Assembly (NCBI RefSeq): GCF_003337735.1
Contig: NZ_QPJY01000001.1
Coordinates: 846,175-910,174, forward strand
Origin: Thioalbus denitrificans
GTDB taxonomy: Bacteria; Pseudomonadota; Gammaproteobacteria; DSM-26407
Direction: 5' to 3'
Length of the DNA: 64,000 nucleotides
Below the pieces are notes generated by a model. The model worked only from the letters and a program-made list of their open reading frames with translations. It searched no databases and was not told the DNA's origin. The position numbers and the translations under genes were made by a program. How positions within the stretch are numbered: the stretch's first letter is position 1; each line of letters opens with the position of its first letter. Positions 5,297 through 19,284 of this stretch are shown here, piece after piece.

Positions 5297-7075
5297 ATGT
5301 GCGGAATCTGTGGTGAGCTGCGCTTTGACGGGGCATCCCCCGACCTGGGGGCCCTGGGGCGGATGCTGGAGGTGCTGGTGCCGCGGGGGCCGGATCATGG
5401 CGGCAGCTATACCGACGGCGCGCTCGCCTTCGGTCACCGGCGCCTGTCCATCATCGACCTGTCCGAACGGGGCAACCAGCCCATGGTGGACCCCGAGCTG
5501 GGGCTGGCGCTGGTCTTCAACGGCACCATCTACAACCATCCGGAGCTGCGGCGCGAGCTCGAGGGCCGCGGCTACCGGTTCTTCTCCGGCAGCGACACGG
5601 AGGTCATTCTCAAGGCCTTCCATGCCTGGGGCGAGCGCTGCCCGGAGCGGCTCCACGGCATGTTCGCCTTCGCGGTCTGGGATCTGCGCAACCGGCGCCT
5701 GTTCCTGGCCCGCGATCGCCTCGGTATCAAGCCGCTCTACTACAGCCAGGACGGCGCGCGGCTGCGCTTCGCCTCCGGCAGCCAGGCCCTGCTCGAGGGC
5801 GGCGGCATCGACACCGCCCTCGACCCGGTGGGCCTCCACCACCAGTTCACCCTCCACGGCGTCGTGCCGGCGCCCACCACCGTGCTGCGCGGCATCCGCA
5901 AGCTCGCCCCCGGCACCACTCTCTGCGTCGACCTGGAGGGGCGCGTCGAACACCGGCGCTACTGGGAGCTGCACGCCCGGCGCCCCGCCGAGGCGCTGAG
6001 CGAGAACGAGTGGATTGGACGCATCCACGACGGCCTGCGGCGGGCGGTGGAGCGGCGGCTGCAGATTGCCGACGTGCCCGTGGGGGTCCTGCTCTCCGGC
6101 GGGCTCGACTCGAGCCTGCTGGTGGGGCTGCTGGCGGAAGCCGGGGTGGAGGAGCTGCTGACCTTCTCGGTGGGGTTCGAGGATCAGCCCGAGGAGCGCG
6201 GCAGCGAGTTCGAGTTCTCCGACGCGGTGGCCGAGCGGTTCCGCACCCGCCACCACCGCTACAGCATTCCCAACGACGAGGTGCTGACGCGCCTGCCCGA
6301 TGCCATCCGCCACATGGCCGAACCCATGTTCGGCCGTGACTCGGTGGCCTTCTACCTGCTCGCCGAGCGGGTTTCGCAGGAGGTGAAGGTGGTCCAGAGC
6401 GGGCAGGGAGCCGACGAGGTCTTCGGGGGCTATTTCTGGTATCCGCAGATGGAGGCGGAGGAGGGCGGCGACCTGGAGCGCTTCGCCCGCCACTACTTCG
6501 ACCGGGATCACCCGGAGATGGCGCGGCTGCTGGCGCCCGAGTACACCGGTGCGGACCACACCTCCGAGCTGGTCGCCCGGCTGCTGGCCGAGCCCGGGGC
6601 CGATACCTTCATGGATCGGGTCCTGCGCATGGACGTGACCACCCTCATCGTGGACGATCCCGTGAAGCGCGTGGACAACATGACCATGGCCTGGGGGCTG
6701 GAGGCGCGGGTGCCGTTTCTCGACCACGAACTGGTGGAACTGGCCATGCAGATGCCGCCCGAACTGAAGCTCATGTCCGGCGGCAAGCACCCGCTCAAGG
6801 CCATCGCCCGCGGCCTGCTGCCCGACAGCGTCATCGATCGGCCCAAGGGCTACTTCCCCGTCCCGGCGCTGCGCTATGTGCGCGGCGCCTTCCTGGAGTT
6901 CATGCGCGAGGTGCTCGACTCCCGCGCCTGCCGCGAGCGCGGCCTGTTCCGGCGCGAGTACATCGACTGGCTGCTCGAGGCGCCCGACCAGCGCCTTACC
7001 CGCATCCGCGGGAGCAAGCTCTGGCAGCTGGCGCTGCTGGAGTACTGGCTGCAGATCAACGTGGACGGGCGGTAG
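5297..7075 (+). CDS. N-acetylglutaminylglutamine amidotransferase-like protein (asparagine synthetase family)
   Basis: A 592-residue class II glutamine amidotransferase fused to an ATP-dependent amide synthetase. Cys2 after the initiator Met (MCGICGE) is the glutaminase nucleophile, which fixes the start at 5297 and not at the upstream in-frame ATG at 5240. The synthetase P-loop SGGLDS is at 267-272. The MCGICGELRFDG start and the RPKGYFPVPALRYVRG region resemble the family making the osmoprotectant N-acetylglutaminylglutamine amide more than AsnB of asparagine synthesis. The usual partner, an acetyltransferase/ATP-grasp synthetase (ngg), is not next to it or elsewhere in this window. A general asparagine-synthetase role is the alternative. 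Confidence 0.8.
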   Translation: MCGICGELRFDGASPDLGALGRMLEVLVPRGPDHGGSYTDGALAFGHRRLSIIDLSERGNQPMVDPELGLALVFNGTIYNHPELRRELEGRGYRFFSGSDTEVILKAFHAWGERCPERLHGMFAFAVWDLRNRRLFLARDRLGIKPLYYSQDGARLRFASGSQALLEGGGIDTALDPVGLHHQFTLHGVVPAPTTVLRGIRKLAPGTTLCVDLEGRVEHRRYWELHARRPAEALSENEWIGRIHDGLRRAVERRLQIADVPVGVLLSGGLDSSLLVGLLAEAGVEELLTFSVGFEDQPEERGSEFEFSDAVAERFRTRHHRYSIPNDEVLTRLPDAIRHMAEPMFGRDSVAFYLLAERVSQEVKVVQSGQGADEVFGGYFWYPQMEAEEGGDLERFARHYFDRDHPEMARLLAPEYTGADHTSELVARLLAEPGADTFMDRVLRMDVTTLIVDDPVKRVDNMTMAWGLEARVPFLDHELVELAMQMPPELKLMSGGKHPLKAIARGLLPDSVIDRPKGYFPVPALRYVRGAFLEFMREVLDSRACRERGLFRREYIDWLLEAPDQRLTRIRGSKLWQLALLEYWLQINVDGR

Positions 7076-7303: not shown

Positions 7304-7642
7304 ATGGATATCCTGGAAGTTATCAAGCAGCAGGTGGAGAGCAACCCGGTCATCATCTATATGAAGGGCACCCCGCAGATGCCCATGTGCGGCTTCTCCT
7401 CCCGCGCCGCCCAGGCACTGCAGGCCAGCGGCGAACCCTTCGCCTACGTCAACGTGCTGGAGAATCCCGAGATCTTCCAGAACCTGCCGCGGTTCGCCAA
7501 CTTTCCCACCTTCCCCCAGATCTACATCGACGGCGAGCTGATCGGGGGCTCCGACATTGCCCTCGAAATGCTTCAGAGCGGTGAGCTGCAGGAGGCGATG
7601 AAGGCGGCCAACGGGAAGTCGGGCCAGGAGCAGAGCGCCTGA
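7304..7642 (+). CDS. grxD: Monothiol glutaredoxin, Grx4 type
   Basis: CGFS-type monothiol glutaredoxin that carries or transfers 2Fe-2S clusters with glutathione; cytoplasmic. The 112-residue protein has the active site PMCGFS, the cis-proline loop FPTFPQIYIDG and the GG(S)DI glutathione-binding end. The start at 7304 is preferred over an in-frame ATG at 7133, because GAGGTGG lies just upstream and homology begins there. It appears monocistronic. Confidence 0.93.
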   Translation: MDILEVIKQQVESNPVIIYMKGTPQMPMCGFSSRAAQALQASGEPFAYVNVLENPEIFQNLPRFANFPTFPQIYIDGELIGGSDIALEMLQSGELQEAMKAANGKSGQEQSA

Positions 7643-7691
7643 GCCGGACGGCGGCTGGGTATCCGTGGCCGGTCTGTCGGAATTCGACATA

Positions 7692-7732
7692 TTGACCCGG
7701 ATCAAGGTAATTCCGGTTCCATGAACTACAGT
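7692..7732 (+). promoter_or_regulatory. FNR/Anr box and class II promoter for the three-component operon
   Basis: TTGAC-CCGG-ATCAA at 7692-7705 matches the FNR consensus TTGAY-N4-RTCAA. A -10-like TACAGT at 7727-7732 predicts a start near 7740, which puts the box centre at about -41.5, the classical activating position. Confidence 0.65.
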
Positions 7733-7740
7733 TAAATCGT

Positions 7741-8170
7741 CACCGTCAAGGTGACGAGGGCCGGCGGCACCGGCCCGCCCGCGCCGCGAATACGCGACCG
7801 TTGCGGGGAGTTCCCCGCCGACCATCTGGGGCCTCATCCGGGTCCCGGGCGCACGGTGCCGCCGGCCCAGCCATGTCTGGCGTCGTCCACCAACCCGTTC
7901 TTCCGGTTCCTCCCGCATCGCATCCCGGCTTCCCCCTTCGATCTTCACCCCCGGATTCGCAGCAAAGCCGTTGTTCGTTCAGCATTCCCCGGTCCTGGCG
8001 CTGGAACCTGGGACGCTACAGGCAACGGGAGCACACGGCGGAGGCCGCCGCCCGCCACCCCGGTGCGGACCGGCTACGGGCCGCGGGAGTGGCCTTGCCC
8101 GGGGCAGGGGCGGTACCATCATCCCAAACCGCTGCGCCAGACGGCGGTTACGGGGACTGTACAGAGAGCC
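7741..8170 (+). other. Long leader upstream of the PhnD-like gene
   Basis: About 430 bp without a convincing gene. The frame is open from 7751, but the translated stretch before 8171 is Arg/Pro-rich and unlike a protein. A small hairpin (CGTCACC / GGTGACG, 7738-7756) lies at the predicted transcript start. No known riboswitch was recognised. Confidence 0.5.
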
Positions 8171-9034
8171 ATGTTTCAGCAATCGTCACGCCCGCGCGGC
8201 GCTTCGGCGTTTGGTCTGCCGGTCCGGGTGGCGGGCCTTCTGCTCCTGTTGCTGTGGACGACCGCGGCGTCGGCCGCGGGGGCGGAGTACTATCGTCTCG
8301 GCGTTCTGCCCCTGCAGAGCCCCACCAAGCTGGCGGGCATGTTCTCGCCCCTGGTGGGACTGATGGAGCAGGAACTGGATCATCCCGTGCAGTTCGTCAC
8401 CGCGCCGAGCTTTTCCGCCTTCATGGACCGGGTGGCGCGGCGCGAGTACCACGTCATCTACCTCAATCCCCTTCTGTACACCGAGGCCCGGGCGGCCGGT
8501 TACCGGGCCGTGGCCAAGGTGGCGGGGGAGCCCTTCACCGGCATCCTGGTGGTGCGCGGGGACAGCCCCGTCCGGACGCTGGACCCTGAGCGGCTGCCCC
8601 GCGGTCTGCGCATCGGATTCCCCGATCCTGGCGCCTATGCCGCCACGGTCATGACCCGCCAGTACATGGAATCGCTCGGCATTCATGTGGACGAGTGGTT
8701 CCAGGTGGAGTACTTCGGCTCCCAGGACTCGGCGCTGCTGGCGCTCCATGCGGGCCTGGTGGACATCATCGGCACTTGGCGCCCCTCCTTCCGCTCCATG
8801 CCCGAGGCCGTGCGCTCGGATCTGCGCATCATCGCCGAGACGCCGCCCCAGCCGCAGATGCCCGTGGCAGTGCGTGACGATGTCCCGGATGCCGAGGTGC
8901 AACAACTGGTGGCGCTGCTCACCGGGCTGGGGGAGCGGACCGAGGGGCGCGTGGCGCTCGAGCGCCTGGGGTTCCTGCAGGGCTTCGACCCGGCGACGGA
9001 CAGCGAGTACCGGGAGGTGCGCCATGAGCGCTGA
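8171..9034 (+). CDS. PhnD-like periplasmic solute-binding protein
   Basis: A 287-residue secreted protein of the phosphate/phosphonate-binding PhnD family. The signal peptide is a hydrophobic core (VAGLLLLLLW) ending at AASA-AGA. The mature part starts YYRLGVLPLQSP and has the family pattern YHVIYLNPLLYTEA and IGFPDPGAYAATVM. No transporter permease or ATPase is nearby. Instead the gene overlaps a histidine kinase by 11 bp, so it probably presents a bound anion to that kinase, as the fused PhnD-like domain does in the tetrathionate sensor TtrS. The ligand is unknown; a sulfur oxyanion is inferred from the downstream operon. The start is the ATG just before the signal peptide. Confidence 0.85.
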   Translation: MFQQSSRPRGASAFGLPVRVAGLLLLLLWTTAASAAGAEYYRLGVLPLQSPTKLAGMFSPLVGLMEQELDHPVQFVTAPSFSAFMDRVARREYHVIYLNPLLYTEARAAGYRAVAKVAGEPFTGILVVRGDSPVRTLDPERLPRGLRIGFPDPGAYAATVMTRQYMESLGIHVDEWFQVEYFGSQDSALLALHAGLVDIIGTWRPSFRSMPEAVRSDLRIIAETPPQPQMPVAVRDDVPDAEVQQLVALLTGLGERTEGRVALERLGFLQGFDPATDSEYREVRHER

Positions 9035-10496
9035 GACGGCGGCGCGCGGGCTGGAGACCCCGGGCGGGCTCGCGCGGCCCGCGCCGCGGATATCGCTGTT
9101 CCGGACCCTGCGCTTCCGGCTGATTCTCTCGGTGGCCCTCGTGCACGTGTGCCTGATGGGGGCCTTCACCTGGGAGTCGGTCCAGGAACAGTCCCAGAGC
9201 GTGCGGGAGCAGCTCTACAACCGGGGCGTGTCGCTGTCCAACCTGATGGTCGTGGCGAGCACCAATGCGGTACTGGCCGAGGACCTGGCGGCGCTGGCGG
9301 AAGTCACCGAGCGGGTCCACCGGCAGCCCGACGTGCGTTACGGCGAGATCGTGGACGCCCGCGGGCAGGTGCTGGCGAGTACCGAGCCGCGCAGCATCGG
9401 CCGTCCGGTCGGGGCGATGGTCGCGGCAAGCGAGCGTTTCCCGCTGCCTGGCGACGACCAGCTGCTGGACCTGCGGGAAGAGGTGACGGTGGCCGGCCGT
9501 CGGGTGGGTACGGTGCTGCTGGGCCTGTCCACGGAGAGCCTCGATGCGGCCCTGCGCAGTACCCGCAACGAGGGGCTGCTGTTCATCCTGTTAGCGCTGT
9601 TCATCGGCAGCGTGGCCGCCTGGGGGCTGTCGCTGGCGCTGACCCGCCATCTCCACGAGCTCACCCGGGCGGCGGGCCAGATCAGCGCCGGGGATTTCAG
9701 CGTCCGGGTGGCGCCGGGGGCACGTGACGAGTCGGGGGTGCTGGCCCGCGCCTTCAACGCCATGGCCGTGTCCCTGGAGCGGACCGCCCGCCGTGCCCGG
9801 CAGGAGCACGAGAAGCGCACCGAGGCCGAGCGCCTGGCCTGCGTGGGCGAGCTCTCCGCCAGCATCGCCCACGAGATCCGCAATCCGCTGGCTGCCATCA
9901 TCAACTCCGTAAGCCTGCTCGACCGGGAGGACCTGGAGCGCGAGGACCGTGGCGAGGTGGTCGACATCATCAACAGCGAGACCCGGCGCCTGCAGCGGAC
10001 CCTGAACGATTTTCTCGATTTTGCCCGCATCCGCGAACCGCAGCTGGCGGTGGTGGACCTCTGTCCGCTGGTGGAGGAGGTGGCGCGGCTGGTGGAGCGC
10101 GATCCCCAGTCCCAGGGACGGGTGCGGTTCCGCCTGCGCTTTCTCGACGGTTCCTGCCGGGCGCACATCGATGCCGACCAGATGCGCCAGGTGCTCTGGA
10201 ACCTGATGCTCAACGCCGTCCAGGCCATGTCCGGGGGCGGCGAGGTGACGGTGCGGGTGGAGTGCGGCGACGGCCGGGTGCAGGTGAGCGTCGTGGACGC
10301 CGGCTGCGGCATGGAGGAGGCATTCGTGGGGAAGGTCACCAAGCCCTTCGTCACCGGCCGCCGGAGCGGCACCGGCCTGGGGCTCGCCATCGCCCAGCGG
10401 GTGCTGATGCAGCACGGCAGCGGGTTGAGCATCGTCAGCCAGCCCGGGGTGGGCACCGAGGTGGGGTTCGAGCTGGGCGCGGTGGGAGCGGAGTGA
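9024..10496 (+). CDS. Membrane sensor histidine kinase
   Basis: A 490-residue kinase. Transmembrane segments are near residues 31-50 and 195-216, flanking a periplasmic domain of about 145 residues. A HAMP linker follows, then the HisKA box IAHEIRNPLAA (His283) and an HATPase domain with N (NLMLNAVQAM), G1 (DAGCGM) and G2 (GTGLGLAIA) boxes. It overlaps the binding-protein gene upstream by 11 bp and the response-regulator start downstream (TGATG), indicating translational coupling. It likely autophosphorylates in response to the periplasmic partner and passes phosphate to the NtrC-type regulator. Confidence 0.93.
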   Translation: MSAETAARGLETPGGLARPAPRISLFRTLRFRLILSVALVHVCLMGAFTWESVQEQSQSVREQLYNRGVSLSNLMVVASTNAVLAEDLAALAEVTERVHRQPDVRYGEIVDARGQVLASTEPRSIGRPVGAMVAASERFPLPGDDQLLDLREEVTVAGRRVGTVLLGLSTESLDAALRSTRNEGLLFILLALFIGSVAAWGLSLALTRHLHELTRAAGQISAGDFSVRVAPGARDESGVLARAFNAMAVSLERTARRARQEHEKRTEAERLACVGELSASIAHEIRNPLAAIINSVSLLDREDLEREDRGEVVDIINSETRRLQRTLNDFLDFARIREPQLAVVDLCPLVEEVARLVERDPQSQGRVRFRLRFLDGSCRAHIDADQMRQVLWNLMLNAVQAMSGGGEVTVRVECGDGRVQVSVVDAGCGMEEAFVGKVTKPFVTGRRSGTGLGLAIAQRVLMQHGSGLSIVSQPGVGTEVGFELGAVGAE

Positions 10497-11848
10497 TGGC
10501 GGTCATCCTCATCGTCGACGACGAATTCTCCATCCGCAAGACCCTGGGGCTGCTGCTCAAGGCCGAGGGCCACACGGTGCACGAGGCCGGAAGCCTGGCC
10601 GAGGCGAAGGAGCGGCTGGAGCAGGCACCGGCGGATCTCGTCATGACCGATCTGCGCCTGGGCGAGGATGACGGCATCGCGGTGCTGGAGCATCTGCGCG
10701 CCAGCGGCAGCGACGCGGAGAGCATCGTCATGACCGCCTACGGCACCATCGAGTCGGCGGTGGAGGCCATGCGGCTGGGCGCCTATGACTATCTGACCAA
10801 GCCCATCAATCCCGCCGAGCTGGTGATACGGGTCACCAAGGTGCTGGAGCGCAAGAGTCTGCGCGAGGAGGTCACCCGCCTGCGCGGCGCCCTCGACGGG
10901 CGGCATGTCCTCGCCCACGTGGTGGCCGAGAGCCCCCAGATGCAGCGGGTCCTGCAGGTCATCGAGCGCATCCGCGATCGGGATCTGCCGGTGCTCATCA
11001 CCGGCGAAACCGGCACCGGCAAGGAGGTGGTGGCGCGCGCCGTCCACGCCACCAGTACCCGGGCCGCCGCGCCGTTCCTGGCCATCAACTGTGCCACCCT
11101 GCCGGAAGACCTGCTCGACTCGGAACTGTTCGGCAGCCTGAAGGGCGCCTTCACCGGGGCGGTCGCCAACCGCAAGGGGCTGTTCCGGGAGGCCCATGGC
11201 GGCACCCTGTTCCTGGACGAGATCGGCGACATCAGCCCGCGCCTGCAGGCCAAGCTGCTGCGCGTGCTGCAGGAGGGCGAGGTGCGGCCGGTGGGGGGCG
11301 ATACCCCGACCCGGGTGGACGTGCGCATCGTCGCGGCCACCAACCGCGACCTCGATCGCATGGTGGAGGCGGGCGAGTTCCGCAGCGACCTGCTGTTCCG
11401 CCTCAACGTCCTGCCCATCGCCCTGCCGCCGTTGCGCGAGCGGCGCGAGGACATCCTGCCCTTGGTGCGGCGGGTGCTCGAGCGGTTGCGGCGGGAGCCG
11501 GGACGGGACAACCTGGGCCTCACCCCCCCCGCCCAGGAGAAGCTGCTGCGCTACGACTGGCCCGGCAACGTGCGGCAGCTGGAGAACATCATCGAGCGCA
11601 GCTTCGCCCTTCATCCCGGGCCGGTGCTCGATGCCCACGAAATCCTCATCACCCCCGCCGGTGTCACCCAGCCGACAGCCGGGCCCGAGGCGGGTCCGGA
11701 GTTGCCGGCCGATATCCCCCTCGCCGAGGTGGAGTCGCTGCACATCCGCCGGGTGCTGGAGCGCCAGGGAGGCAACCAGGTGGCGGCCGCCCGGGTGCTC
11801 GGCATCAGCCGTTCCACCCTGCGCCGCAAACTGGGCCAGAACGGCTGA
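10496..11848 (+). CDS. NtrC-family sigma-54-dependent response regulator
   Basis: A 450-residue activator. The receiver has acidic pair DD8-9 and phospho-acceptor Asp52 in MTDLRL. The AAA+ domain has Walker A GETGTGKE (170-177), the sigma-54 contact loop GAFTGA (217-222) and GGTLFLDEIGD. A Fis-type helix-turn-helix ends the protein (NQVAAARVLGISRSTLRRKL). Its start overlaps the kinase stop. It is followed by an upstream-site-like palindrome and a canonical -24/-12 promoter, so its target is very probably the sulfur operon just downstream. Confidence 0.95.
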   Translation: MAVILIVDDEFSIRKTLGLLLKAEGHTVHEAGSLAEAKERLEQAPADLVMTDLRLGEDDGIAVLEHLRASGSDAESIVMTAYGTIESAVEAMRLGAYDYLTKPINPAELVIRVTKVLERKSLREEVTRLRGALDGRHVLAHVVAESPQMQRVLQVIERIRDRDLPVLITGETGTGKEVVARAVHATSTRAAAPFLAINCATLPEDLLDSELFGSLKGAFTGAVANRKGLFREAHGGTLFLDEIGDISPRLQAKLLRVLQEGEVRPVGGDTPTRVDVRIVAATNRDLDRMVEAGEFRSDLLFRLNVLPIALPPLRERREDILPLVRRVLERLRREPGRDNLGLTPPAQEKLLRYDWPGNVRQLENIIERSFALHPGPVLDAHEILITPAGVTQPTAGPEAGPELPADIPLAEVESLHIRRVLERQGGNQVAAARVLGISRSTLRRKLGQNG

Positions 11849-11883
11849 CTCATTCTGCGACACCCTTGTCTTATCCTGAGGCA

Positions 11884-11909
11884 TTTCCCTGCAGTGAAAA
11901 CAGGGGAAA
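11884..11909. promoter_or_regulatory. Imperfect palindrome, candidate activator (enhancer) site
   Basis: TTTCCCTG (11884-11891) and CAGGGGAAA (11901-11909) form an inverted repeat with a 9-base gap, about 180 bp upstream of the sigma-54 promoter. That distance is typical for NtrC-type activators. There is no T-run, so it is not a good terminator for the regulator gene. Confidence 0.4.
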
Positions 11910-11919
11910 AGAGCCAACC

Positions 11920-12054
11920 TCGAAGGCACGAAGGTCACGAAGCGGTTTTTTCTCTATCTGGATGCCCCTCAGAAGCCTGGCGATGTTAAGCCAAGGTGCT
12001 CATTTTCTTATCGATAACCCCATGTTTCTTCGTGTTCTTCGTGCCTTCGTGGTG
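11920..12054. repeat. Iterated-word inverted-pair element (CGAAGGCACGAAGG family)
   Basis: The left end (11920-11943) repeats the word CGAAGGCA/CGAAGGTCA. The right end (12026-12054) is the inverted form TTCGTG...CCTTCGTGGTGG. The 135-bp unit lies between the enhancer-like palindrome and the sigma-54 promoter, and the same family recurs near 31.9 kb and 43.4 kb. Confidence 0.7.
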
Positions 12055-12081
12055 GATTATAATTATGTATTAATATTGTAT

Positions 12082-12099
12082 TTGGCACTGGCCTTGCAA
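12082..12099 (+). promoter_or_regulatory. Sigma-54 (-24/-12) promoter of the sulfur operon
   Basis: TTGGCAC-TGGCC-TTGCAA matches the RpoN consensus TGGCACG-N4-TTGCA at all but one position. The diagnostic GG (12084-12085) and GC (12096-12097) start positions are exactly 12 bases apart. Transcription would begin near 12109, 32 bp before the first gene. Confidence 0.85.
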
Positions 12100-12140
12100 C
12101 TGCCTGGGGAAAAGAAATCAACATCCAGGTGGAGGCCTGC

Positions 12141-12632
12141 ATGGAGCTGTTCAAGAAGACCCTCGATCCGGTCGTGGCGCTGGTGATTATCGCCGTGCTC
12201 GACATTTTCATGTTCCTCACCATCGGGGCATGGACGGTGGGGGGCGGCGAAACCATGATGACCGGGCTCATTGCCCAGTTGTTCCTCGGCGACGAGCTCT
12301 CCCGCATTCCCTTCTGGGAACTGGTGTTCCCGCCCGATCCCGGCTACTGGAAGATCTACATCAGCCTGGGGATGCTGTTCGGCGCCCTGGTGGGCGCGAT
12401 CATGAGCAAGGAGTTCTACTGGCGCTTCCCGCGCCACCTCTCCGAGTGGGTCATGATCACCGTGGGCGGACTGCTCATGGGCATCGGCATCCGGCTCGCC
12501 TTCGTCTGCAACGTGAGCACCTTCTTCGGGCTGACCCCGGAGATGAACCTCGGCGGCTACCTCGCGGTGAGCGGCATCCTCGCCGGTGCCTGGGTGGGTT
12601 CGCTCGTCTACAAGAAAGTGCTGGAGGGTTGA
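12141..12632 (+). CDS. YeeE/YedE-family sulfur transporter, first half
   Basis: A 163-residue inner-membrane protein, the N-terminal half of a YeeE/YedE permease (the family includes thiosulfate importers). About four hydrophobic segments are visible, with VGGLLMGIGIRLAFVCN near the end carrying the conserved cysteine region. The ATG at 12141 follows AGGTGGAGG. It is the first gene after the sigma-54 promoter and is separated by only two bases from the second half-transporter. The split arrangement is known in the family (PmpA/PmpB type). Confidence 0.85.
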   Translation: MELFKKTLDPVVALVIIAVLDIFMFLTIGAWTVGGGETMMTGLIAQLFLGDELSRIPFWELVFPPDPGYWKIYISLGMLFGALVGAIMSKEFYWRFPRHLSEWVMITVGGLLMGIGIRLAFVCNVSTFFGLTPEMNLGGYLAVSGILAGAWVGSLVYKKVLEG

Positions 12633-12634
12633 CC

Positions 12635-13285
12635 ATGTCCCCCGTCGGAGAGTGCATCACCGCCTTCATCTTCGGTTCCGTGGTGGGCCTGCTGGTGCAG
12701 CGCTCGCGCTTCTGCAACACCGCCGCGCTGCGCGACGCCATGCTGTTCAAGACCTACCGCAACACCAAGGCGCTGCTGGTGGCCATGATGATCCTGACCC
12801 TCGGCTTCACCACCTTCCTCACCTTCGGCGACGGCAAGCCGCTGCATTTCGACGTGGGGCTGAACCAGGTGATGGGGCTGTTTCTGTTCGGCATCGGCAT
12901 GGTGCTCGCCGGGGCCTGCACCGTCTCCACCTGGGTCAAGGCGGGAGAGGGCAACATCGGCGCCGTGTGGGCGCTGCTGTTCACCTTCATCGGCATGTTC
13001 CTGTTCTCACTACTCTGGTCCTTCTCCTACTGGCCGCCGGCGCCGGGGACCATGAGCGGCGAGCCCAACCTGGCCGGCCTGCAGCTGGGCTACGCCAACG
13101 CCGCCACCCTGCAGGAGAAGACCGGCATCCCGGCGGTGGTGTTCGGACTGGTGCAGTTCGCGGTGCTGCTGGCCATCTACCGCGCCATCCGCCGCAAGGA
13201 AACCGCCGCGGAGCACGCCAAGGCTCCGGCCGGTCAGGGCGCGGGCGCCGCCTCGGCGGGCGCCGTGGCCAGCCGCAACGACTGA
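12635..13285 (+). CDS. YeeE/YedE-family sulfur transporter, second half
   Basis: A 216-residue membrane protein complementing the gene before it. It has the RSRFCNTAALRDA segment and the GIGMVLAGACTVSTW motif, the conserved cysteines proposed to relay sulfur species in the family. A cytoplasmic Ala-rich tail ends it. Start ATG is two bases after the preceding stop. Sulfur imported here could be passed to the TusA-like protein encoded next. Confidence 0.87.
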   Translation: MSPVGECITAFIFGSVVGLLVQRSRFCNTAALRDAMLFKTYRNTKALLVAMMILTLGFTTFLTFGDGKPLHFDVGLNQVMGLFLFGIGMVLAGACTVSTWVKAGEGNIGAVWALLFTFIGMFLFSLLWSFSYWPPAPGTMSGEPNLAGLQLGYANAATLQEKTGIPAVVFGLVQFAVLLAIYRAIRRKETAAEHAKAPAGQGAGAASAGAVASRND

Positions 13286-13322
13286 TTCACTGACAATGAA
13301 CTGACAAAGAGGAGCACGGACG

Positions 13323-13634
13323 ATGGGACTGTTCGGACGCAAGAAGAGCAATGACGGCGGTGATGTCCAGCCCCAGGGCAGCATCACCCTGGAGGATGGC
13401 AGCAGCGTGAGCATCGCGCAGGTGGTGGACTGTATCGGCGACTCCTGCCCGCGCCCGCAGCTGATGACCAAGAAGGCGGTGGGCAACGCCGCCTCCGGCG
13501 ATGTCATCGAGGTGCGCATCGACAACCCCACCTCCATGGAGGCCATTCCGCCCATGATGCCCGACCTCGGCGCCCGCCACCTCGGCACGGTGAAGTCGGG
13601 GCGCTACTGGAGCGTGGTGGTGGCGAAGAACTAG
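13323..13634 (+). CDS. TusA-family sulfur carrier protein
   Basis: A 103-residue protein with a variable N-terminal extension of about 30 residues and then a TusA/SirA domain. The persulfide cysteine lies in the CPRP motif (IGDSCPRPQLMTKKAV). The C-terminal half is the usual beta strand pattern ending YWSVVVAKN. It probably accepts sulfur from the YedE pair and hands it to DsrE-like or enzyme partners in the cytoplasm. An AAAGAGGAG ribosome site precedes it. Confidence 0.9.
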   Translation: MGLFGRKKSNDGGDVQPQGSITLEDGSSVSIAQVVDCIGDSCPRPQLMTKKAVGNAASGDVIEVRIDNPTSMEAIPPMMPDLGARHLGTVKSGRYWSVVVAKN

Positions 13635-13653
13635 CGCGGGTCCTTTCGTGTTT

Positions 13654-13796
13654 ACCACGGAGGCACGGAGAACACGGAGAAGACGGGGAAAACTCTCCCT
13701 GCGCCAGGCTGACGCCGTAGCGCCCGGTTCCAGGGCCAGCCCTGCATTCTCCATGTGGAACAGCGCCTCCGTGACCTCCGTGTCTCCGTGGTGAAA
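13654..13796. repeat. Iterated-word inverted-pair element (ACCACGGAGGCACGGAG family)
   Basis: The left end (13654-13680) iterates CACGGAG; the right end (13764-13796) carries the inverted CCTCCGTG...TCTCCGTGGT. It fills most of the 206-bp gap between tusA and the next small gene, inside the presumed operon. Confidence 0.7.
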
Positions 13797-13840
13797 GCAT
13801 CGGATCGCAACACCCGTTGGAGCCAACAAGGAACAGCAAT

Positions 13841-14056
13841 ATGGGAACTGGCCATCTGCAGATGTGGATCTTCTCGGCGCTGGTGACGCTGCTCACCATC
13901 GGCGGCATCGCCTACATCTTCATCGCCCAGCCGGAGTACCTGCGCGCCGATCGCGACGGGGTTCCGTACTTCAGTCCCAAGGTGGAGAACCCGATCACCG
14001 GGGAAGCCATCGACATGGGCACCCTGGTGCGCCACTACCGCGGAGAGACGCCATGA
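13841..14056 (+). CDS. Small single-span membrane protein, function unknown
   Basis: A 71-residue protein with one N-terminal transmembrane helix (about residues 8-28, FSALVTLLTIGGIAYIF) and a polar tail with GVPYFSPKVENPITGEAIDM. An AAGGAA ribosome site supports the ATG at 13841 over a TTG at 13817. Its stop overlaps the ATG of the 30-residue gene that follows (ATGA). Not recognised; its position in the sulfur operon suggests an accessory subunit of the transporter. Confidence 0.7.
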   Translation: MGTGHLQMWIFSALVTLLTIGGIAYIFIAQPEYLRADRDGVPYFSPKVENPITGEAIDMGTLVRHYRGETP

Positions 14057-14145
14057 GCCTCGATCTGGAAACCCTGGTCCAGCTGGTGGCGTTCGGGGTG
14101 GCGTTCTACGCCATGTACATCAACTTCACCAAGGATCCCTTCTGA
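14053..14145 (+). CDS. 30-residue membrane microprotein
   Basis: Starts within the stop of the preceding gene (ATGA) and encodes a 30-residue peptide with one hydrophobic stretch (LVQLVAFGVAFYAMYI) ending NFTKDPF. The four-base overlap with one gene and the 13-bp gap to the next argue for real translation. It is too short for family assignment. Confidence 0.55.
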   Translation: MSLDLETLVQLVAFGVAFYAMYINFTKDPF

Positions 14146-14158
14146 GCCGGAGGTCGTC

Positions 14159-14437
14159 ATGAACACCCGTCAGATGCTGATGTTCTGTGCCGGCAGCCTG
14201 GCCCTGAGTCTCGGCGCCGCCGCCGTCCTCTTTCCCTTCGCCTCGGTGAGCAGGGAGACCCTGCAGGCGTCGCGCAGCGCCCAGCCGGTGGAGGCCCTGG
14301 GCGAGGTGGACCTGGGGCCCGATTTCGGCACGGTGCCGGTGACCGAGCTGGTGGGGTACTACATCGAGAACCCGCCGGCGGCGCCCGAGCCGGGCGTGGC
14401 GGCCGCGCCGAAGCGGCAGCAGTTCGGCGGCTGCTAG
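14159..14437 (+). CDS. Small membrane-anchored or secreted protein, function unknown
   Basis: A 92-residue protein with a hydrophobic N-terminus (GSLALSLGAAAVLFPF) and an acidic middle ending VGYYIENPP, then a Pro/Ala-rich tail finishing QFGGC. CCGGAGG lies upstream of the ATG. Its last base overlaps the GTG of the rhodanese-like gene. No family was recognised. Confidence 0.65.
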   Translation: MNTRQMLMFCAGSLALSLGAAAVLFPFASVSRETLQASRSAQPVEALGEVDLGPDFGTVPVTELVGYYIENPPAAPEPGVAAAPKRQQFGGC

Positions 14438-15390
14438 TGGGGAGAAGCCTCCACCACGGCCTGCTGCCGGCACTGTTGCTGGCCGTCTCCGGCCCAGTCG
14501 GCGCGGAGCTGGTGTACGTGGACGCGGTGCCCGACCCGGCCGCTGTCGTCGTGGTGGATACCCGGCCCGAACCGGCCTGCCTCGAACGCAGCCTGGATCA
14601 GGCCCGCTGCCTGCCGACCGAGACGTTCCTGGGTCCGCAACGGCGGCTGGCGAGTTTCCGCGACATCGTCTGGGTCCTGGGTACGGCCGGCCTGCGCGGC
14701 GATGAAACGGTGCTGGTGGCGGGAGCCGACCCGGTGCGCCGTGATGCCGTCGCGGCGCTGCTGCACCTGGCCGGTCAGCACCGCGTCGAGGTCCTGATCC
14801 CGCCCCTGCCGCAATATCTCGGGACGCCCGGGACGGCTGCGGGTACCGGACGGCCCCGGGGTGTCCTGCGGGACCCGATCTATACCGGGCAGCTGCGCGA
14901 GGAGCTCATGGTGCTGCGCGACGAGCTGGCACGGCGCCTCACCGCACCGGGCGCCCCCCGGCTGCTGGACGGACGGCCCGTGGGCGAGTACTGGGGCGAG
15001 CGGCTGCGGGCCCGGCGCGGCGGTCACCTGCCCGGTGCCGAGCTGGCGCCGGCCGCCGAGTTGCGGGCCGCGCTGGCACGGGGGGAGAAGCCCCTGGCGG
15101 CCGCGGGCGAGGTGGTGGCCTACGGCCATGAGCCGCTCACCGGGCTCGCCTACCTGACCCTGCTGCGGGCCGGATACGGCATCGACGCCCGACTCTACCC
15201 GGGCGGCTGGCGCGAGTGGGCCGATGACGGCCGCCTGCCCGCCGATGCGGTGGCCTACCGTGAGCCGGAACCGGTGGAGACATCCGGCGCCCCGGGCGCC
15301 GGACCCTGGGCCCAGGCCCTGCTGACCCTCGCTGCGGCGCTGGCCGCCGCCCTGTTCGGATACCTGCTCGGAAGAAGGAGGATTACCTGA
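14437..15390 (+). CDS. Membrane-anchored tandem rhodanese-like protein lacking the active cysteine
   Basis: A 317-residue exported protein with an N-terminal signal segment, two rhodanese-like domains and a C-terminal transmembrane anchor (ALLTLAAALAAALFGYLLG) followed by RRR. The second domain has LLDGRPVGEYWG and RGGHLPGAEL, but the active loop reads AYGHEPLTG, with glycine where rhodaneses have the catalytic cysteine. It probably binds or presents a sulfur compound without transferring it. The start is a GTG overlapping the previous stop; its own stop overlaps the next ATG (TGATG). Confidence 0.72.
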   Translation: MGRSLHHGLLPALLLAVSGPVGAELVYVDAVPDPAAVVVVDTRPEPACLERSLDQARCLPTETFLGPQRRLASFRDIVWVLGTAGLRGDETVLVAGADPVRRDAVAALLHLAGQHRVEVLIPPLPQYLGTPGTAAGTGRPRGVLRDPIYTGQLREELMVLRDELARRLTAPGAPRLLDGRPVGEYWGERLRARRGGHLPGAELAPAAELRAALARGEKPLAAAGEVVAYGHEPLTGLAYLTLLRAGYGIDARLYPGGWREWADDGRLPADAVAYREPEPVETSGAPGAGPWAQALLTLAAALAAALFGYLLGRRRIT

Positions 15391-15680
15391 TGGACCTGCT
15401 TTTCATCGTCTCCACGCCGGATGCGTCACGGGTGCTGCTGCCCCTGGCCGCCGCCTGCAAGCGGCGCGGCGCCCGCTGGGGGTGTTTCTTCACCAACGAC
15501 GGTGTGGAGGCCCTGCGTGACGAACAGGTGGTGCGGGCCATGTCCTGCGCCGATACCGCGGTGGCCTGCGAGCACTCCTGGGAGCGTTTCATGGGCGAGG
15601 CCGCCTGCCCGGTGAACCTGGGCAGCCAGACCAACAACAGCGCCCTGGTGGGCGAGGCGCGCAAGGTCATCAGCCTATAG
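15390..15680 (+). CDS. DsrE-family protein
   Basis: A 96-residue cytoplasmic protein with the DsrE/DsrF-like Rossmann start LLFIVSTPDA and the pattern ALRDEQVVRAM. Cysteines are found at WGCFF, MSCAD, VACEH and AACPV. Members of this family receive or hold persulfide sulfur next to TusA proteins. The start is coupled to the preceding stop (TGATG). A degenerate foldback element begins immediately after its stop. Confidence 0.75.
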   Translation: MDLLFIVSTPDASRVLLPLAAACKRRGARWGCFFTNDGVEALRDEQVVRAMSCADTAVACEHSWERFMGEAACPVNLGSQTNNSALVGEARKVISL

Positions 15681-15791
15681 GGCGCTGCTCCACACCTGAA
15701 GGCCCGTCCCGAGCTCTCCGGACACGCCGGGGCAAGGCGCTGCGCGCTGGCGACCGCTCGCCGAATGTGTCTCCAGGGGTGGAACAGCACG
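15681..15791 (-). mobile_element. Degenerate, shortened copy of the 270-bp foldback element
   Basis: Read on the minus strand it starts GTGCTGTTCCACCCCTGGAG, followed by ACACATTCGGCGAG. This parallels the left end of the copies at 43165 and 48228, and it ends with the inverted form. At about 111 bp it lacks the middle of the element. It separates the two DsrE-like genes. Confidence 0.65.
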
Positions 15792-15813
15792 CGAACACAA
15801 GGGAGAAGCCTAC

Positions 15814-16089
15814 GTGAGCGAGAAGAAGAACATCCTGGTGCTGGCGCGCCGCGACCACACCGAGGCCATGCGGGTGGCCGCCGGTCTCACCATCTTCGGC
15901 CACACCGTGCGCCTGGTGTTCATGGGCGGCCCGGTTGCGGACACGCCGGAGAACGCCGAGCAGGCGGAGACGCTGGAGCTGTGCGACATCGAGCCGGAGA
16001 CCACCGTGCCGGGACAGGAGCTGCCCATGCTGGATCCGCGGGCCCTGTCACTGGCCATGGTCCGCTCCGACTGCGTGCTGAGCATCTAG
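15814..16089 (+). CDS. Second DsrE-like protein
   Basis: A 91-residue protein starting at GTG 15814 behind AAGGGAGAAG. The first strand ILVLARRDHTEA and the segment HTVRLVFMGG fit a DsrE-type fold. Cysteines occur only at ELCDIEP and near the C-terminus (SDCVLSI), a position used by the sulfur-relay proteins TusB/DsrH. It is part of the sulfur operon, flanked on both sides by repeat elements. Confidence 0.65.
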   Translation: MSEKKNILVLARRDHTEAMRVAAGLTIFGHTVRLVFMGGPVADTPENAEQAETLELCDIEPETTVPGQELPMLDPRALSLAMVRSDCVLSI

Positions 16090-16120
16090 CAGCCTGTCGG
16101 ACTTGAGGCTGATCCACTGC

Positions 16121-16266
16121 GCCACCGGGGACACAGGGCGCACCGGGCGCTGCGATCCGGAGGCACAGGCCGGCCGAAGCGGGTAGGCGCGGTGTCCACA
16201 CCCATGCGGGGGATCGTGGACGCGGCCACTCCAACTTCCCCTGTGCGCCCTGTGTCCCCGGTGGCT
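16121..16266. repeat. Iterated-word inverted-pair element (CACCGGGGACACAGGG family)
   Basis: The left end GCCACCGGGGACACAGGGCG (16121-16140) is mirrored by the right end GCGCCCTGTGTCCCCGGTGG (16245-16264). It occupies most of the 212-bp gap before the next small gene. A weaker inverted CCTGTCGGA / TCGGACAGG pair flanks it. Confidence 0.7.
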
Positions 16267-16301
16267 GACATTGAAGTTTTCGGACAGGAGATTTCGAGCG
16301 A

Positions 16302-16487
16302 ATGAACATTGCCGTGCTGAAAACCGGGCTGTTCCCGGACCGTGAGACGGTGGAGGAGGGGTTGTCCCACTTCGAGACCACCTACTTCGTCTACACCTAC
16401 GATGCCACGCGTCCGGGGCTGACCGACGCCGACTGGGACCAGGCGCTCGACGAGCTGCTGGCCGCCGAGCGGGTGGTGGTCGTCTGA
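16302..16487 (+). CDS. 61-residue protein of unknown function
   Basis: An acidic soluble protein (MNIAVLKTGLFPD...) with an AGGAGA site upstream. The first strand resembles the start of DsrE-like folds, but the chain is too short to assign. It lies between the second DsrE-like gene and the active rhodanese gene. Confidence 0.6.
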   Translation: MNIAVLKTGLFPDRETVEEGLSHFETTYFVYTYDATRPGLTDADWDQALDELLAAERVVVV

Positions 16488-16541
16488 CCCCCGCATGCAC
16501 CTGTGCCCAAACCATAATAGAAAGCCAGAGGAGGTAGCACT

Positions 16542-17480
16542 ATGAGCAAACTGCAGCGTTTCATCACCACCGGCGTGGCCGTGGCCGCCATCGGTCTCAG
16601 CGGTACGGCCTGGGCCGCGGCCCAGCCGCTGGTGGACGTGGCGTGGATCAAGGCCAACTCCTGCAACGACGGCGTCCGTGTCCTCGATATCCGCAACGCC
16701 CTGGACGGCGGTTCCCAGACCGACTACCTGCGCGGCCATATCCCCTGCGCGGTGCACACCGACTACCTGAAGGACGGCTGGCGCGTGGCGGACAAGAACA
16801 AGACCCCGGGCCAGCTGCCGCCCGCCGATCAGCTGGAGAAGCTCATCGGCGGCCTGGGCATCGGCAACGATACCCAGGTGGTGATCGTCCCGGCGGGCAA
16901 GGATGCGCTCGACATGGGCAGCGCCACGCGGATGTTCTGGACCTTCAAGGTGCTGGGGCACGACAACGTCTCCATCCTCAACGGCGGCCTGGCGGCCTAC
17001 ACGAAGGATGAGAAGAACCCGCTGGAAAAGGGCAACAACAAGCCCGAGGCCGTTGCCTTCAAGGCCAACCTGCGCCAGGAGATGCTGGTGGGCAAGGAGG
17101 AGATGAAGGCGGCCATGGAGAAGGGCGTGACCCTGGTGGACAACCGCCCCAACGACCAGTACATCGGCATCAACCGTCACCCGAAGGCCAAGCGCAACGG
17201 CACCATCCCCGGCGCCAGGAACCTGCCGGAGAACTGGATGACCGAGAACAACGGCGGCACGTTCCGCGACGCCGAGACGCTGAAGAAGCTCTACGCGGTG
17301 GCCGAGGTTCCCACCGAGGGCGAGGTGATCACCTTCTGCAACACCGGTCACTGGGCGTCGCTGGGCTGGTTCGCGGAGCACGAGCTGCTGGGCAACCAGC
17401 AGGCGAAGCTCTATGACGGTTCCATGGTGGAGTGGAGCGCCGACGAGTCCCTGCCCATGGAGCAGAAGGTCAACTACTGA
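16542..17480 (+). CDS. Periplasmic thiosulfate sulfurtransferase (two-domain rhodanese)
   Basis: A 312-residue exported rhodanese. The signal peptide ends TAWA-AAQP. The N-terminal inactive domain has VLDIRNALDGG and YLRGHIPCAVH. The C-terminal catalytic domain has VDNRPNDQYIG, GTIPGARNLP and the active cysteine loop FCNTGHWAS. It transfers a sulfane sulfur from thiosulfate or a related donor to an acceptor in the periplasm, complementing the inactive membrane rhodanese in the same operon. An AGGAGG ribosome site precedes the ATG. Confidence 0.9.
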   Translation: MSKLQRFITTGVAVAAIGLSGTAWAAAQPLVDVAWIKANSCNDGVRVLDIRNALDGGSQTDYLRGHIPCAVHTDYLKDGWRVADKNKTPGQLPPADQLEKLIGGLGIGNDTQVVIVPAGKDALDMGSATRMFWTFKVLGHDNVSILNGGLAAYTKDEKNPLEKGNNKPEAVAFKANLRQEMLVGKEEMKAAMEKGVTLVDNRPNDQYIGINRHPKAKRNGTIPGARNLPENWMTENNGGTFRDAETLKKLYAVAEVPTEGEVITFCNTGHWASLGWFAEHELLGNQQAKLYDGSMVEWSADESLPMEQKVNY

Positions 17481-17508
17481 TGGGCTCCGCCCGCTCCGTT
17501 CGAAGGCC

Positions 17509-18156
17509 GTGAACGGAATACGCCGGATCGCCGCGGCGCTGGTGCTGCTCCTCTTGAGCGGTGCCGGCGCCGCGGTTTTTGCCCAGGGCGAGCACGGCCG
17601 GCGCTTTGCCGTGGAACTGGCCATCCTGGCCGGCGATGTGCGGCTGCTGACCGTGACGACGCCGTCTGACCTCCACCGGCGCGGGCTGCGGGACCGGGTG
17701 GCCAGTGCACTGGGTTACCTGGGGCTGCTGGCCCGGGAGGCGGCGCAGGAAACCGGCGTTGCCGACCCGGGACTGGACGCCGACATCGATGCCCTGCGCG
17801 CGGCGTTCCGGGGCGGCCGGCCGCAGGTGCTGGCCGATGGTCTGGCCGCGCTGCAGCGGCGCTACCCGGTCGATGCGCCGGGCTTCATGCCCGTCGAAGC
17901 GACCCCGGCGCGGCTGCGGACCGGGCGCGAGCTCTACGAACGGCTCTGCATCGCCTGCCACGCCGTGCCGGACACCAATCGTTCCAATCCGGCCCGGGAT
18001 CTGTTCCGGGATGCCAGGGAGATGCCGCCGGAGGAGTTCGTGGCGCGGCTGCTGGGCGGGGTGCGCGGCGTGACGCAGAGCGGTCTCGAAAACCCGCTCA
18101 CCGACGAGGAGTTGCGCGGCCTGCTGGCCTGGTTCCGGCACGGGCCGTCCCGGTGA
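17509..18156 (+). CDS. Periplasmic mono-heme cytochrome c
   Basis: A 215-residue exported protein starting at GTG 17509, with signal peptide IAAALVLLLLSGAGA. A helical domain of about 110 residues is followed by one c-type heme site CIACH. The distal methionine may be that of REMPPEEF, but this is uncertain. It is 28 bp after the rhodanese and probably takes electrons from the sulfur reaction. Its last 59 bp overlap the convergent nsrR-like gene. Confidence 0.82.
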   Translation: MNGIRRIAAALVLLLLSGAGAAVFAQGEHGRRFAVELAILAGDVRLLTVTTPSDLHRRGLRDRVASALGYLGLLAREAAQETGVADPGLDADIDALRAAFRGGRPQVLADGLAALQRRYPVDAPGFMPVEATPARLRTGRELYERLCIACHAVPDTNRSNPARDLFRDAREMPPEEFVARLLGGVRGVTQSGLENPLTDEELRGLLAWFRHGPSR

Positions 18157-18589
18157 GATCCGGCATCAGGATCGCGCGCAGGCGCGTCCGCTTCCTGAGC
18201 AGGTCCGCCAGGGTATAGCCATCCAGCACCTTGTAGAACGCCTGCAGCGCTTCGCCCAGGAACCGCTGCAGGTTGCAGGCTCCCTCGATGCGGCACTCCG
18301 AGGTGGCCGGGTCGAAGCACTCCACCAGCGCCGTGGAGGCCTCCGTGCGGCGCACCACCTTCCCCAGGACGACGGCGTCGGCCGCCTGCGCCAGGCGCAT
18401 TCCGCCGCCCTTGCCGCGCACCGTCTCCACGAGGCCTTCCGTGGCCAGGTGATGGACCACCTTCATCAGGTGGTTGCGGGAGATGCCGTAGGCCTCCGCG
18501 ATCTCGCCCACCGTGGCCAGCTCCCCGCCCTTGATGCCGAGGTAGATGAGAACGCGCAGGGTGTAGTCGGAGAACAGGGTCAGGCGCAT
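18098..18589 (-). CDS. Rrf2-family repressor, NsrR-like
   Basis: A 163-residue winged-helix regulator with the NsrR/IscR N-terminus MRLTLFSDYTLRVLIYLG and recognition helix GISRNHLMKVVHHL. Three cysteines (VECFDPATSEC, then GAC six residues later) are spaced as in NsrR and would ligate a nitric-oxide-sensitive Fe-S cluster. It diverges from an operon for NO- and Fe-S-related proteins, with an NsrR-like palindrome between them. It likely represses that operon and possibly itself. The C-terminal tail of about 20 residues is Arg/Thr-rich and variable. Confidence 0.85.
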   Translation of the reverse strand: MRLTLFSDYTLRVLIYLGIKGGELATVGEIAEAYGISRNHLMKVVHHLATEGLVETVRGKGGGMRLAQAADAVVLGKVVRRTEASTALVECFDPATSECRIEGACNLQRFLGEALQAFYKVLDGYTLADLLRKRTRLRAILMPDLTGTARAGTRPAGRATPRR

Positions 18590-18613
18590 GGCCGGGGCTC
18601 CTTCGGGTAATTA

Positions 18614-18681
18614 ACATGCATGTCAGATATTGATTATCCCGCGACGGGATGATATACAAAACATGTATCTCACATACATGT
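18614..18681. promoter_or_regulatory. NsrR-type operator region
   Basis: ACATGTAT-CTCAC-ATACATGT at 18661-18681 is a perfect palindrome of 8-bp arms, close to the 11-1-11 NsrR consensus. A second site ACATGCATGT (18614-18623) lies nearer the repressor gene. Together they cover both divergent promoters. Confidence 0.65.
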
Positions 18682-18689
18682 AAAAGACC

Positions 18690-19007: not shown

Positions 19008-19034
19008 CTGCCACTGAAAGGATGGAGAATTGCC

Positions 19035-19277: not shown

Positions 19278-19284
19278 CCCGGCC

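Follow-up and report, generated by a model that had tools for sequence, protein, structure and literature searches.

A three-component sensor trio as candidate regulator of a split-YedE, putative sulfur import operon in Thioalbus denitrificans

Described systems and the present locus

The sensing and import of external sulfur by sulfur-dependent bacteria are poorly understood (PMC11582611). We analyzed a 64,000-nucleotide stretch of the 4.14-Mb genome of Thioalbus denitrificans (the window; contig 1, 846175-910174), in which three genes designated X, S and R (the XSR trio, 8171-11848) are followed, after a 292-bp gap, by a twelve-gene operon ending at 18156. On comparative sequence evidence, we think it probable that a dedicated XSR-type three-component system controls this operon, and that the operon imports and relays sulfane sulfur for Dsr oxidation. 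The evidence comprises the gene set and its order, conserved cysteines, enrichment of a promoter and of a putative activator site (the R-box) beside XSR, and co-occurrence with dsrA. An own sensor-and-switch trio is a likely answer to how sulfur oxidizers notice external sulfur compounds. The genes of the trio and of the operon lie on the forward strand, and published systems are compared as far as excerpts of the cited papers cover them.

AioXSR, ArxXSR and ArrXSR are three-component arsenic sensors, whose regulators AioR and ArxR likewise act at RpoN promoters (Badilla 2018, PMC5908839). The initial annotation of the window, made by a model from the letters alone, had called the present system a candidate new one. 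Its architecture is of the same kind as the arsenic sensors, so that the trio is a variant of the AioX/ArxX/ArrX XSR kind; the target, a sulfur import operon, and the evidence for control are new. As in the arsenic systems, a lone periplasmic protein of the PhnD fold is encoded beside a histidine kinase and a regulator, and no ATP-binding cassette (ABC) permease or ATPase was found among the genes scanned with Pfam at 7307-20409. As in AioXSR and ArxXSR, the regulator is an AtoC-type sigma-54 activator, and a predicted RpoN promoter and activator site precede the target operon.

X (8171-9034) is a 287-amino-acid (aa) periplasmic PhnD-like binding protein (PF12974, 1.9e-48) and the putative sensor input. 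Its AlphaFold2 model (predicted local distance difference test score, pLDDT, 87.8) matched PtxB, PhnD, ArrX and AioX entries with Z scores of about 25-29. S (9024-10496) is a 490-aa membrane histidine kinase with HAMP, HisKA and HATPase domains and two predicted helices, and its outer domain gave a borderline sCache_3_2 match. R (10496-11848) is a 450-aa NtrC/AtoC-type sigma-54 activator consisting of a receiver, an AAA+ domain containing GAFTGA and a Fis-type helix-turn-helix; it scored 438 bits against the AtoC model, under the cut-off of 714. The X and S genes overlap by 11 nt and the S and R genes by 1 nt. A PhnD-like protein lacking ABC partners and coupled to a kinase and an NtrC-type regulator had been claimed by the initial annotation, and the domains and overlaps bear this out. 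TtrSR, the two-component system for tetrathionate, likewise has a kinase with PhnD-like input, and its signal is a sulfur compound. In TtrS, the PhnD domain is fused to the kinase, and the partner is a LuxR-type regulator, whereas X is a separate gene product, R is sigma-54 dependent, and S scored 81.6 against the TtrS cut-off of 750.

For the operon, a closer parallel that the initial annotation had missed is the YTD cluster, or DsrEFH type II (PMC12998232, PMC13293266). Both group a YedE-type transporter, TusA and a DsrE-fold protein with two additional small proteins, and the DsrE-fold protein has a conserved cysteine, here Cys60 of dsrE1 (PMC12998232, PMC13293266, PMC13047784, PMC9751629). 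The present operon differs from YTD by the split YedE, two rhodaneses, three membrane mini-proteins, a cytochrome c and, at some loci, XSR. The complete YTD cluster was reported only from Desulfobacterota and Nitrospirota among 111 proteomes (PMC12998232), and DsrEFH type II from 985 genomes of 20 phyla (subtype 1, 21% in Pseudomonadota; PMC13293266). Type II was found mainly with reductive dsrAB, as a tendency and not a rule, whereas the present operon occurs in Pseudomonadota and SAR324 with dsrA. In the single genome inspected for this, it is accompanied by an oxidative-looking dsr operon that includes type I dsrEFH, unlike the typical company of type II. The core of the operon resembles YTD in gene kinds, and its putative DsrEFH-like triad may be DsrEFH type II subtype 1 or a relative.

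TsuA/TsuB and SoxT are YeeE-family sulfur importers, and PmpA/PmpB are half transporters (PMC11582611). The present transporter shares with TsuA the YeeE fold, a set of three conserved cysteines as counted over both halves, and a TusA-like partner; against the TsuA NCBIfam model, which describes a single full-length protein, its halves scored 47.6 and 60.8 bits (cut-off 400). It is halved like PmpB (N-half) and PmpA (C-half), but the order is swapped so that the C-half gene precedes the N-half gene, the halves are larger (163 and 216 versus about 130 aa), and the operon is long. SoxT1B differs in signaling via the repressor SoxR and not via a binding protein (PMC11582611). No description of XSR paired with this operon, of sigma-54/XSR control or of the full operon gene set appeared among the papers listed from an open-licence library or in the excerpts of PMC5908839, PMC11582611, PMC12998232, PMC13047784, PMC9751629, PMC13293266, PMC11237559 and PMC10952691.

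Linkage of the trio to a conserved operon and its promoter

Relatives of the operon were collected with yedE1, its first gene, from named genomes, and the best 80 of 124 were kept as loci; they span Alpha-, Beta- and Gammaproteobacteria and SAR324. Gene order was counted by tblastn at the 51 loci with at least 6.5 kb downstream and, for the genes found, was identical in all 51. The genes yedE2, tusA, sm1, dsrE1 and dsrE2 were found at all 51 loci, sm3 and rhd2 at 50, rhd1 and cyt at 49, sm4 at 42 and sm2 at 28, although tblastn has little power for a 30-aa protein such as sm2. By this comparison, the operon is a real, conserved unit. Since cyt belongs with the operon at 49 of 51 loci, we set the operon end at 18156 rather than at 17480. 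Cultivated carriers include Thiorhodococcus mannitoliphagus, Magnetovibrio blakemorei and Sedimenticola, and the Sedimenticola strains of loci L041, L042 and L048 carry XSR together with the operon.

The linkage was evaluated in a draw of 369 genomes of the class, with a close X defined by at least 45% identity. yedE1 was present in 10 genomes, and a close X in seven of these and in none of the 359 others (Fisher p 6.9e-13; Fisher p values here ignore relatedness). All seven genomes with a close X have yedE1. The trio lies just upstream of the operon in five of them (the window's genome, G056, G334, G154 and G262), just downstream in G156 and on another contig in G207. The trio thus adjoins the operon in six of seven, as the initial annotation had proposed in linking the two, and does not stand mainly beside phosphonate or unrelated genes. 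Among the three yedE1 genomes without a close X, G001 has a completeness of 87% and a contig that starts within S (locus L039 taken as the same contig). In G125, a diverged trio stands just downstream of the operon. At this locus (L154, 9791-18115), the operon and an 11/12 sigma-54-like site are followed by a convergent XSR with 27% (X), 25% (S) and 40% (R) identity, perhaps an independent recruitment of a similar sensor. The third genome, G266, is considered below.

We also scored X over 42 operon genomes, namely all 10 yedE1 genomes of the class draw plus those behind 32 of the 80 named loci, picked for long contigs. The scores were bimodal, with 17 genomes at 375 bits or more and the rest at 156 or less. 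Nine regions with distant X homologues (L027-L035, 8.7-18 kb, 31-36% identity) had no such operon adjoining, and other weak X/YedE regions of the window's genome (L036-L038) contained no operon gene except a weak yedE2 match in L036. Ten proteins immediately neighboring XSR-less operons at nine loci included no common regulator; they were LysR, PfkB, glucokinase, rhodanese, an ion channel and five without a match at E<=1e-4. Loci L043, L046, L050 and L039 apparently coincide with contigs of G056, G334, G154 and G001, respectively, and L061/L078/L079, L045/L048 and L087/L088 are near-duplicates.

A sigma-54 (-24/-12) promoter-like site, TGGCACTGGCCTTGCA, was found on the forward strand at 12083-12098. 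The site, TGGCAC-N5-TTGCA, matches 11 of 12 consensus positions and stands 58 nt 5' of the first operon ATG; none of 100 shuffles of the 300-bp upstream region equalled its score. Sites matching at least 9 of 12 positions within 300 bp of yedE1 were counted in 20 XSR-bearing operons (17 named, the window, L024 and L025) and in 63 others whose upstream sequence covers 150 bases or more, leaving L154-L156 outside. They were present in 19 of 20 (all but L025) and 6 of 63, respectively (Fisher p 1.3e-12), and those of the XSR-bearing operons stand 53-83 nt before the yedE1 ATG. In the class draw, a site of at least 9 was present within about 200 bp of yedE1 in nine of ten operon genomes, the exception being G156. 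RpoN-type control, including the -24/-12 promoter before the operon, had been predicted from the window alone, and these counts argue for it.

The putative activator site was modeled after inspection of intergenic sequences. A 17-bp palindromic model was chosen, and the motif search was then run on 14 regions (13 named loci and L024) with the window excluded, seeded with every 17-mer from four of them. R-box 1, TGACTCATTCTGCGACA, lies at 11846-11862 as a predicted upstream activating site with a position weight matrix score of 17.5, and a weaker R-box 2 lies 21 bp from it at 11867-11883 (score 8.1). In shuffled regions, the 95% and 99% levels were 7.7 and 10.4, so that R-box 2 alone is near the 95% level. 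The best score was 13.5-19.8 in all 17 XSR-bearing named loci, 13 of which are training data, and at most 10.7 in the 63 XSR-less operons. Untrained scores were 17.5 (window), 18.5 (L025) and 13.8 (L039); L048, L078 and L079 are also untrained but near-duplicates of trained loci. In 15 of 19 regions, the best second R-box is spaced by exactly 21 bp, which corresponds to two turns of the helix. Across 274,650 bases of XSR-bearing loci, 21 matches scored at least 13, and 19 of these are located immediately before yedE1. A search of the whole genome yielded 21 sigma-54-like sites (three in the backward control), and a strong R-box accompanies only the yedE1 site within a 3-kb locus, the maximum for the rest being 9.2. 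The palindrome has no evident likeness to the ArxR site given in the excerpts of PMC5908839.

At L115, the R-box and promoter are kept though the trio lies downstream of the operon. We rejected the R-box as mere coding sequence of R, since it persists at L025 and also at L115, a locus whose yedE1 is not preceded by R. The R-box stands at -153 to -170 in 14 of 17 named loci, at -208, -208 and -307 in the others and at -295 in the window. The window position results from a 137-bp interspersed inverted-repeat element (11917-12053) between the boxes and the promoter (-295 plus 137 = -158). NtrC-type activators work at a distance, and R, if it does so, would tolerate the box at -295.

In L025 (G156), the gene preceding yedE1 behind the R-boxes 1.4-1.5 kb upstream ends in a sequence that looks, by eye, like an outer-membrane beta-barrel. 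This gene is perhaps a sulfur-compound porin of the same regulon.

Operon products and the Dsr pathway

The first two genes encode the swapped halves of a YeeE/YedE transporter: yedE1 (12141-12632) the C-terminal half (PF04143, 171-310) and yedE2 (12635-13285) the N-terminal half (PF04143, 1-161). Cys123 of yedE1 is kept in 80 of 81 sequences, and Cys27 and Cys95 of yedE2 in 76 of 77 and 77 of 77, respectively. tusA (13323-13634; PF01206, 1.8e-16) encodes a cytoplasmic sulfur carrier with Cys42 in 76 of 76. Three predicted single-span membrane proteins follow: sm1 (13841-14056, 71 aa), sm2 (14053-14145, 30 aa) and the membrane-anchored sm3 (14159-14437, 92 aa). The last residue of sm3 is Cys in 72 of 72 sequences, preceded as FGGC in 51 of 71 relatives. 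Positive-inside counts gave no clear topology for sm1 and sm3, so any side assigned to the sm3 cysteine is presumptive.

rhd1 (14437-15390; PF00581, 1.4e-9) is a rhodanese-domain protein with N- and C-terminal hydrophobic helices. Cys is outside the three commonest residues at every position of its two rhodanese-type loops in 68 sequences, in line with the inactive rhodanese seen in the initial annotation, while Cys48 and Cys58 are invariant (68/68). rhd2 (16542-17480; PF00581, 4.4e-25) is a tandem rhodanese with an N-terminal leader by eye and catalytic Cys266 in 64 of 64. Sulfur-bearing cysteines were to be expected in TusA, both YedE halves, rhd2 and dsrE1; the conserved terminus of sm3 and the two rhd1 cysteines were less so. 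The last gene, cyt (17509-18156; PF13442, 1e-7), encodes a c-type cytochrome with both heme cysteines in 57 of 58. All the genes noted initially, namely split YedE, TusA, four tiny proteins, two rhodaneses and cytochrome c, were confirmed as present.

Two DsrE-like proteins had also been proposed. dsrE1 (15390-15680; Cys60, in 69 of 69 sequences, and Cys73) has the DsrE/F/H fold according to its AlphaFold2 model (pLDDT 97.5), with Z scores of 12.3 to YchN, 12.3 to DsrEFH (2hy5, best chain C) and 12.2 to TusBCD (2d1p_A). With plain Foldseek, every match lay at E 0.001 or above, the leading six rows being TusBCD chain C, a DsrE/DsrF-like protein, a DsrE-type sulfurtransferase (two chains), a designed cage and a conserved hypothetical protein; a profile search of PDB sequences gave no match at E values up to 10. 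For dsrE2 (15814-16089), a putative DsrF-like small soluble protein without a conserved Cys, the evidence is its position and a weak profile match to DsrF 2hy5_B (E 0.28). Neither protein had a Pfam or NCBIfam match above cut-off, and sm1 to sm4 had no accepted family match. sm4 (16302-16487) is a 61-aa soluble protein without a conserved Cys and, from its position, a putative third subunit of a DsrEFH-like set.

dsrA was over its curated cut-off in 37 of the 42 operon genomes and present as fragments in four. At E<=0.001, some match was obtained in 42 of 42 and in 8 of 14 control genomes (mostly other sulfite reductases), and therefore only matches over cut-off and named fragments were counted. 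One fragment case, G400, has only 42 residues at contig ends. In the class draw (E<=1e-40), dsrA was found in 9 of 10 operon genomes versus 108 of 359 others (p 1.9e-4). SoxB was over cut-off in 33 of 42. The window's genome has an operon of the dsrA-B-E-F-H-C-M-K type, with type I dsrE, dsrF and dsrH (TIGR03012, 03010, 03011) and dsrC over cut-off. dsrB was assigned by position and a weaker match to the dsrA model; a DsrM-like protein under its cut-off, dsrK and dsrO are also present. This operon further contains a gene that we take to be DsrL-like. Because a canonical type I DsrEFH is present, the DsrE-fold set of the import operon is a second one. Given the dsrA counts, the Dsr pathway is the probable destination of the imported sulfur; the operon is absent from most dsrA genomes of the class and is thus an accessory import module and not a core part of Dsr. 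The comparative tests support the import and relay role assigned initially, as they do the three-component nature of the trio. Two or three dsrA copies over cut-off were found in G056, G156, G370-G372, G377, G379, G383, G384 and G399.

The regulation could be as described while the operon functions in the disproportionation of sulfur or the detoxification of persulfide/sulfane, roles suggested for YTD, with which it shares YedE, TusA, DsrE-like and small conserved proteins. YTD is more abundant in thiosulfate-disproportionating cells (PMC9751629), and G262 without dsrA and the many dsrA genomes of the class without the operon would fit this function. We nevertheless hold it to be rather unlikely, in view of the dsrA counts, the oxidative-looking dsr operon with type I dsrEFH and the transfer of sulfur to DsrC in vitro by DsrEFH-II of cable bacteria (PMC13293266). 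The operon carries this debate, disproportionation versus oxidation, into Pseudomonadota. Handling of selenium instead of sulfur is highly improbable: YedE, TusA and rhd2 match selenium-linked models weakly and all under cut-off, and two loci come from Sedimenticola selenatireducens, but SoxB and dsrA are over cut-off in most operon genomes, as counted above.

The sensor protein, the proposed chain and flanking elements

The anion-binding residues of AioX include Ser161, Ser163, His192 and Cys106, and no binding of thiosulfate or tetrathionate to AioX, ArxX or ArrX was detected (PMC5908839). In profile alignments, DPMSFSGH of ArrX and DPNSTSGF of PhnD align with DP-x-A-[YF]-A-AT of X. Both anion-binding serines are replaced by alanine, invariant in 15 of 15 X proteins, and the PhnD/AioX histidine position is an invariant glutamine (Gln185); mapping onto AioX numbering relies on the text of PMC5908839 as excerpted. 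No Cys is present in the translation of the window X. Because of these replacements and the missing cysteine, X probably does not bind its ligand in the known way. A sulfur oxyanion had been proposed as the ligand, and the pocket lends it no support; a sulfane sulfur species is our favoured guess. The initial interpretation was right in outline, backed by independent sequence evidence, and is partly supported, the ligand claim being the unsupported part.

The same pocket bears on two other explanations of the trio. A relic arsenic, phosphonate or phosphite sensor of the AioXSR/ArxXSR type, standing here by chance, would account for the PhnD/ArrX/AioX fold of X and for an RpoN-type regulator, since AioR and ArxR also use such promoters (PMC5908839). 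However, the pocket residues are changed, the trio co-occurs with the sulfur operon, and R-boxes lie at the operon promoter. No aio/arx/arr-type arsenic oxidase or reductase gene was found among the genes scanned at 7307-20409, to which the search was limited, and we regard this explanation as very unlikely. Alternatively, S itself senses with X as an accessory, or R answers another kinase, so that the operon is sigma-54 controlled while X does not bind sulfur. This is suggested by the own outer domain of S, by the absence of known anion-binding residues in X and by three class genomes without a close linked trio (G125, G207 and G266) that have an 11/12 sigma-54-like site within 200 bp of yedE1. 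Against it, all three genes of the trio occur side by side at the XSR-bearing loci other than L039, whose contig begins inside S, and X is strongly conserved, with 50 invariant alignment columns. We give it a small chance.

For the favored control of the import operon by XSR, we infer the phosphorelay, the binding of R to the boxes, the direction of sulfur flow, the ligand and the order of partners as follows. X would bind a reduced sulfur species in the periplasm and engage the outer domain of S, which would phosphorylate R. Dimers of R would bind the two tandem palindromes, mostly spaced by 21 bp, and thereby activate the sigma-54 RNA polymerase at the -24/-12 site before yedE1. Sulfur would be collected by periplasmic rhd2 together with non-catalytic rhd1, membrane-anchored sm3 with its C-terminal Cys and the cytochrome c, and moved across the membrane by the split YedE1/YedE2 transporter. 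TusA would take the sulfur and pass it to dsrE1, with dsrE2 and sm4, and on to DsrC/DsrAB. The locus presents a complete testable chain, from a soluble sensor, a kinase and an activator with a predicted DNA site to one promoter and one operon, and gives sm1 to sm4 a regulatory and pathway context.

Several observations weigh against this reading. XSR was found at 17 of 80 loci, at 15 of 62 with 4 kb upstream and at 12 of 38 with 4 kb upstream and 8.5 kb downstream; therefore, the operon does not need the trio. The 17 of 80 is no unbiased frequency, since keeping the best 80 of 124 favors window-like loci. G262 has the operon and XSR and no dsrA. G266 has no X at E<=1e-10, and tblastn of its 20-kb region found no sm1-sm3, dsrE1, sm4 or cyt. 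G207 has no match to the R-box profile, its trio and operon being on different contigs. The second R-box is often weak (-1.5 to 13.7 where 21 bp away), and in L025 the R-boxes are 31 bp apart and, with a weaker 9/12 site, precede another gene about 1.4 kb upstream of yedE1. The loss of known anion-binding residues in X weakens any specific ligand claim. The counts also disregard relatedness between genomes, and near-duplicates occur among the loci.

A bolder proposal goes beyond control by XSR, and we consider it possible but doubtful. X would represent a new ligand class of PhnD-fold sensors, reading sulfane sulfur (polysulfide, polythionate or a sulfur-loaded carrier) via a pocket without the anion-binding serines. 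The conveyor under its control would include sm3 as a membrane-tethered SoxY-like carrier, holding sulfur on its C-terminal Gly-Gly-Cys arm. If true, dedicated hardware links periplasmic Sox/rhodanese sulfur to cytoplasmic Dsr.

Outside the genes discussed, 5240-7075 is an asparagine synthetase gene by eye. The region 18098-20409, adjoining the operon, encodes an Rrf2-family regulator, a MIP18-type Fe-S assembly protein, a DUF2249 protein and a 374-aa protein without a Pfam match (NnrS-like by eye). A second interspersed inverted-repeat element stands at 13651-13795 between tusA and sm1. The two elements inside the locus, which have arms of the CACGAAG type, break no gene, and further copies in the window are at 32166, 43466-43499 and 54392. 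Of the repeat core pattern CACGRAGGNCACGRAG, the genome holds 127 copies (69 forward, 58 reverse) and the backward control 0; in the listed part, copies often form inverted pairs some 130-260 bp apart. A different inverted repeat lies at 16121-16265 between dsrE2 and sm4, with 27-nt arms that are 96% complementary and 91 nt apart.

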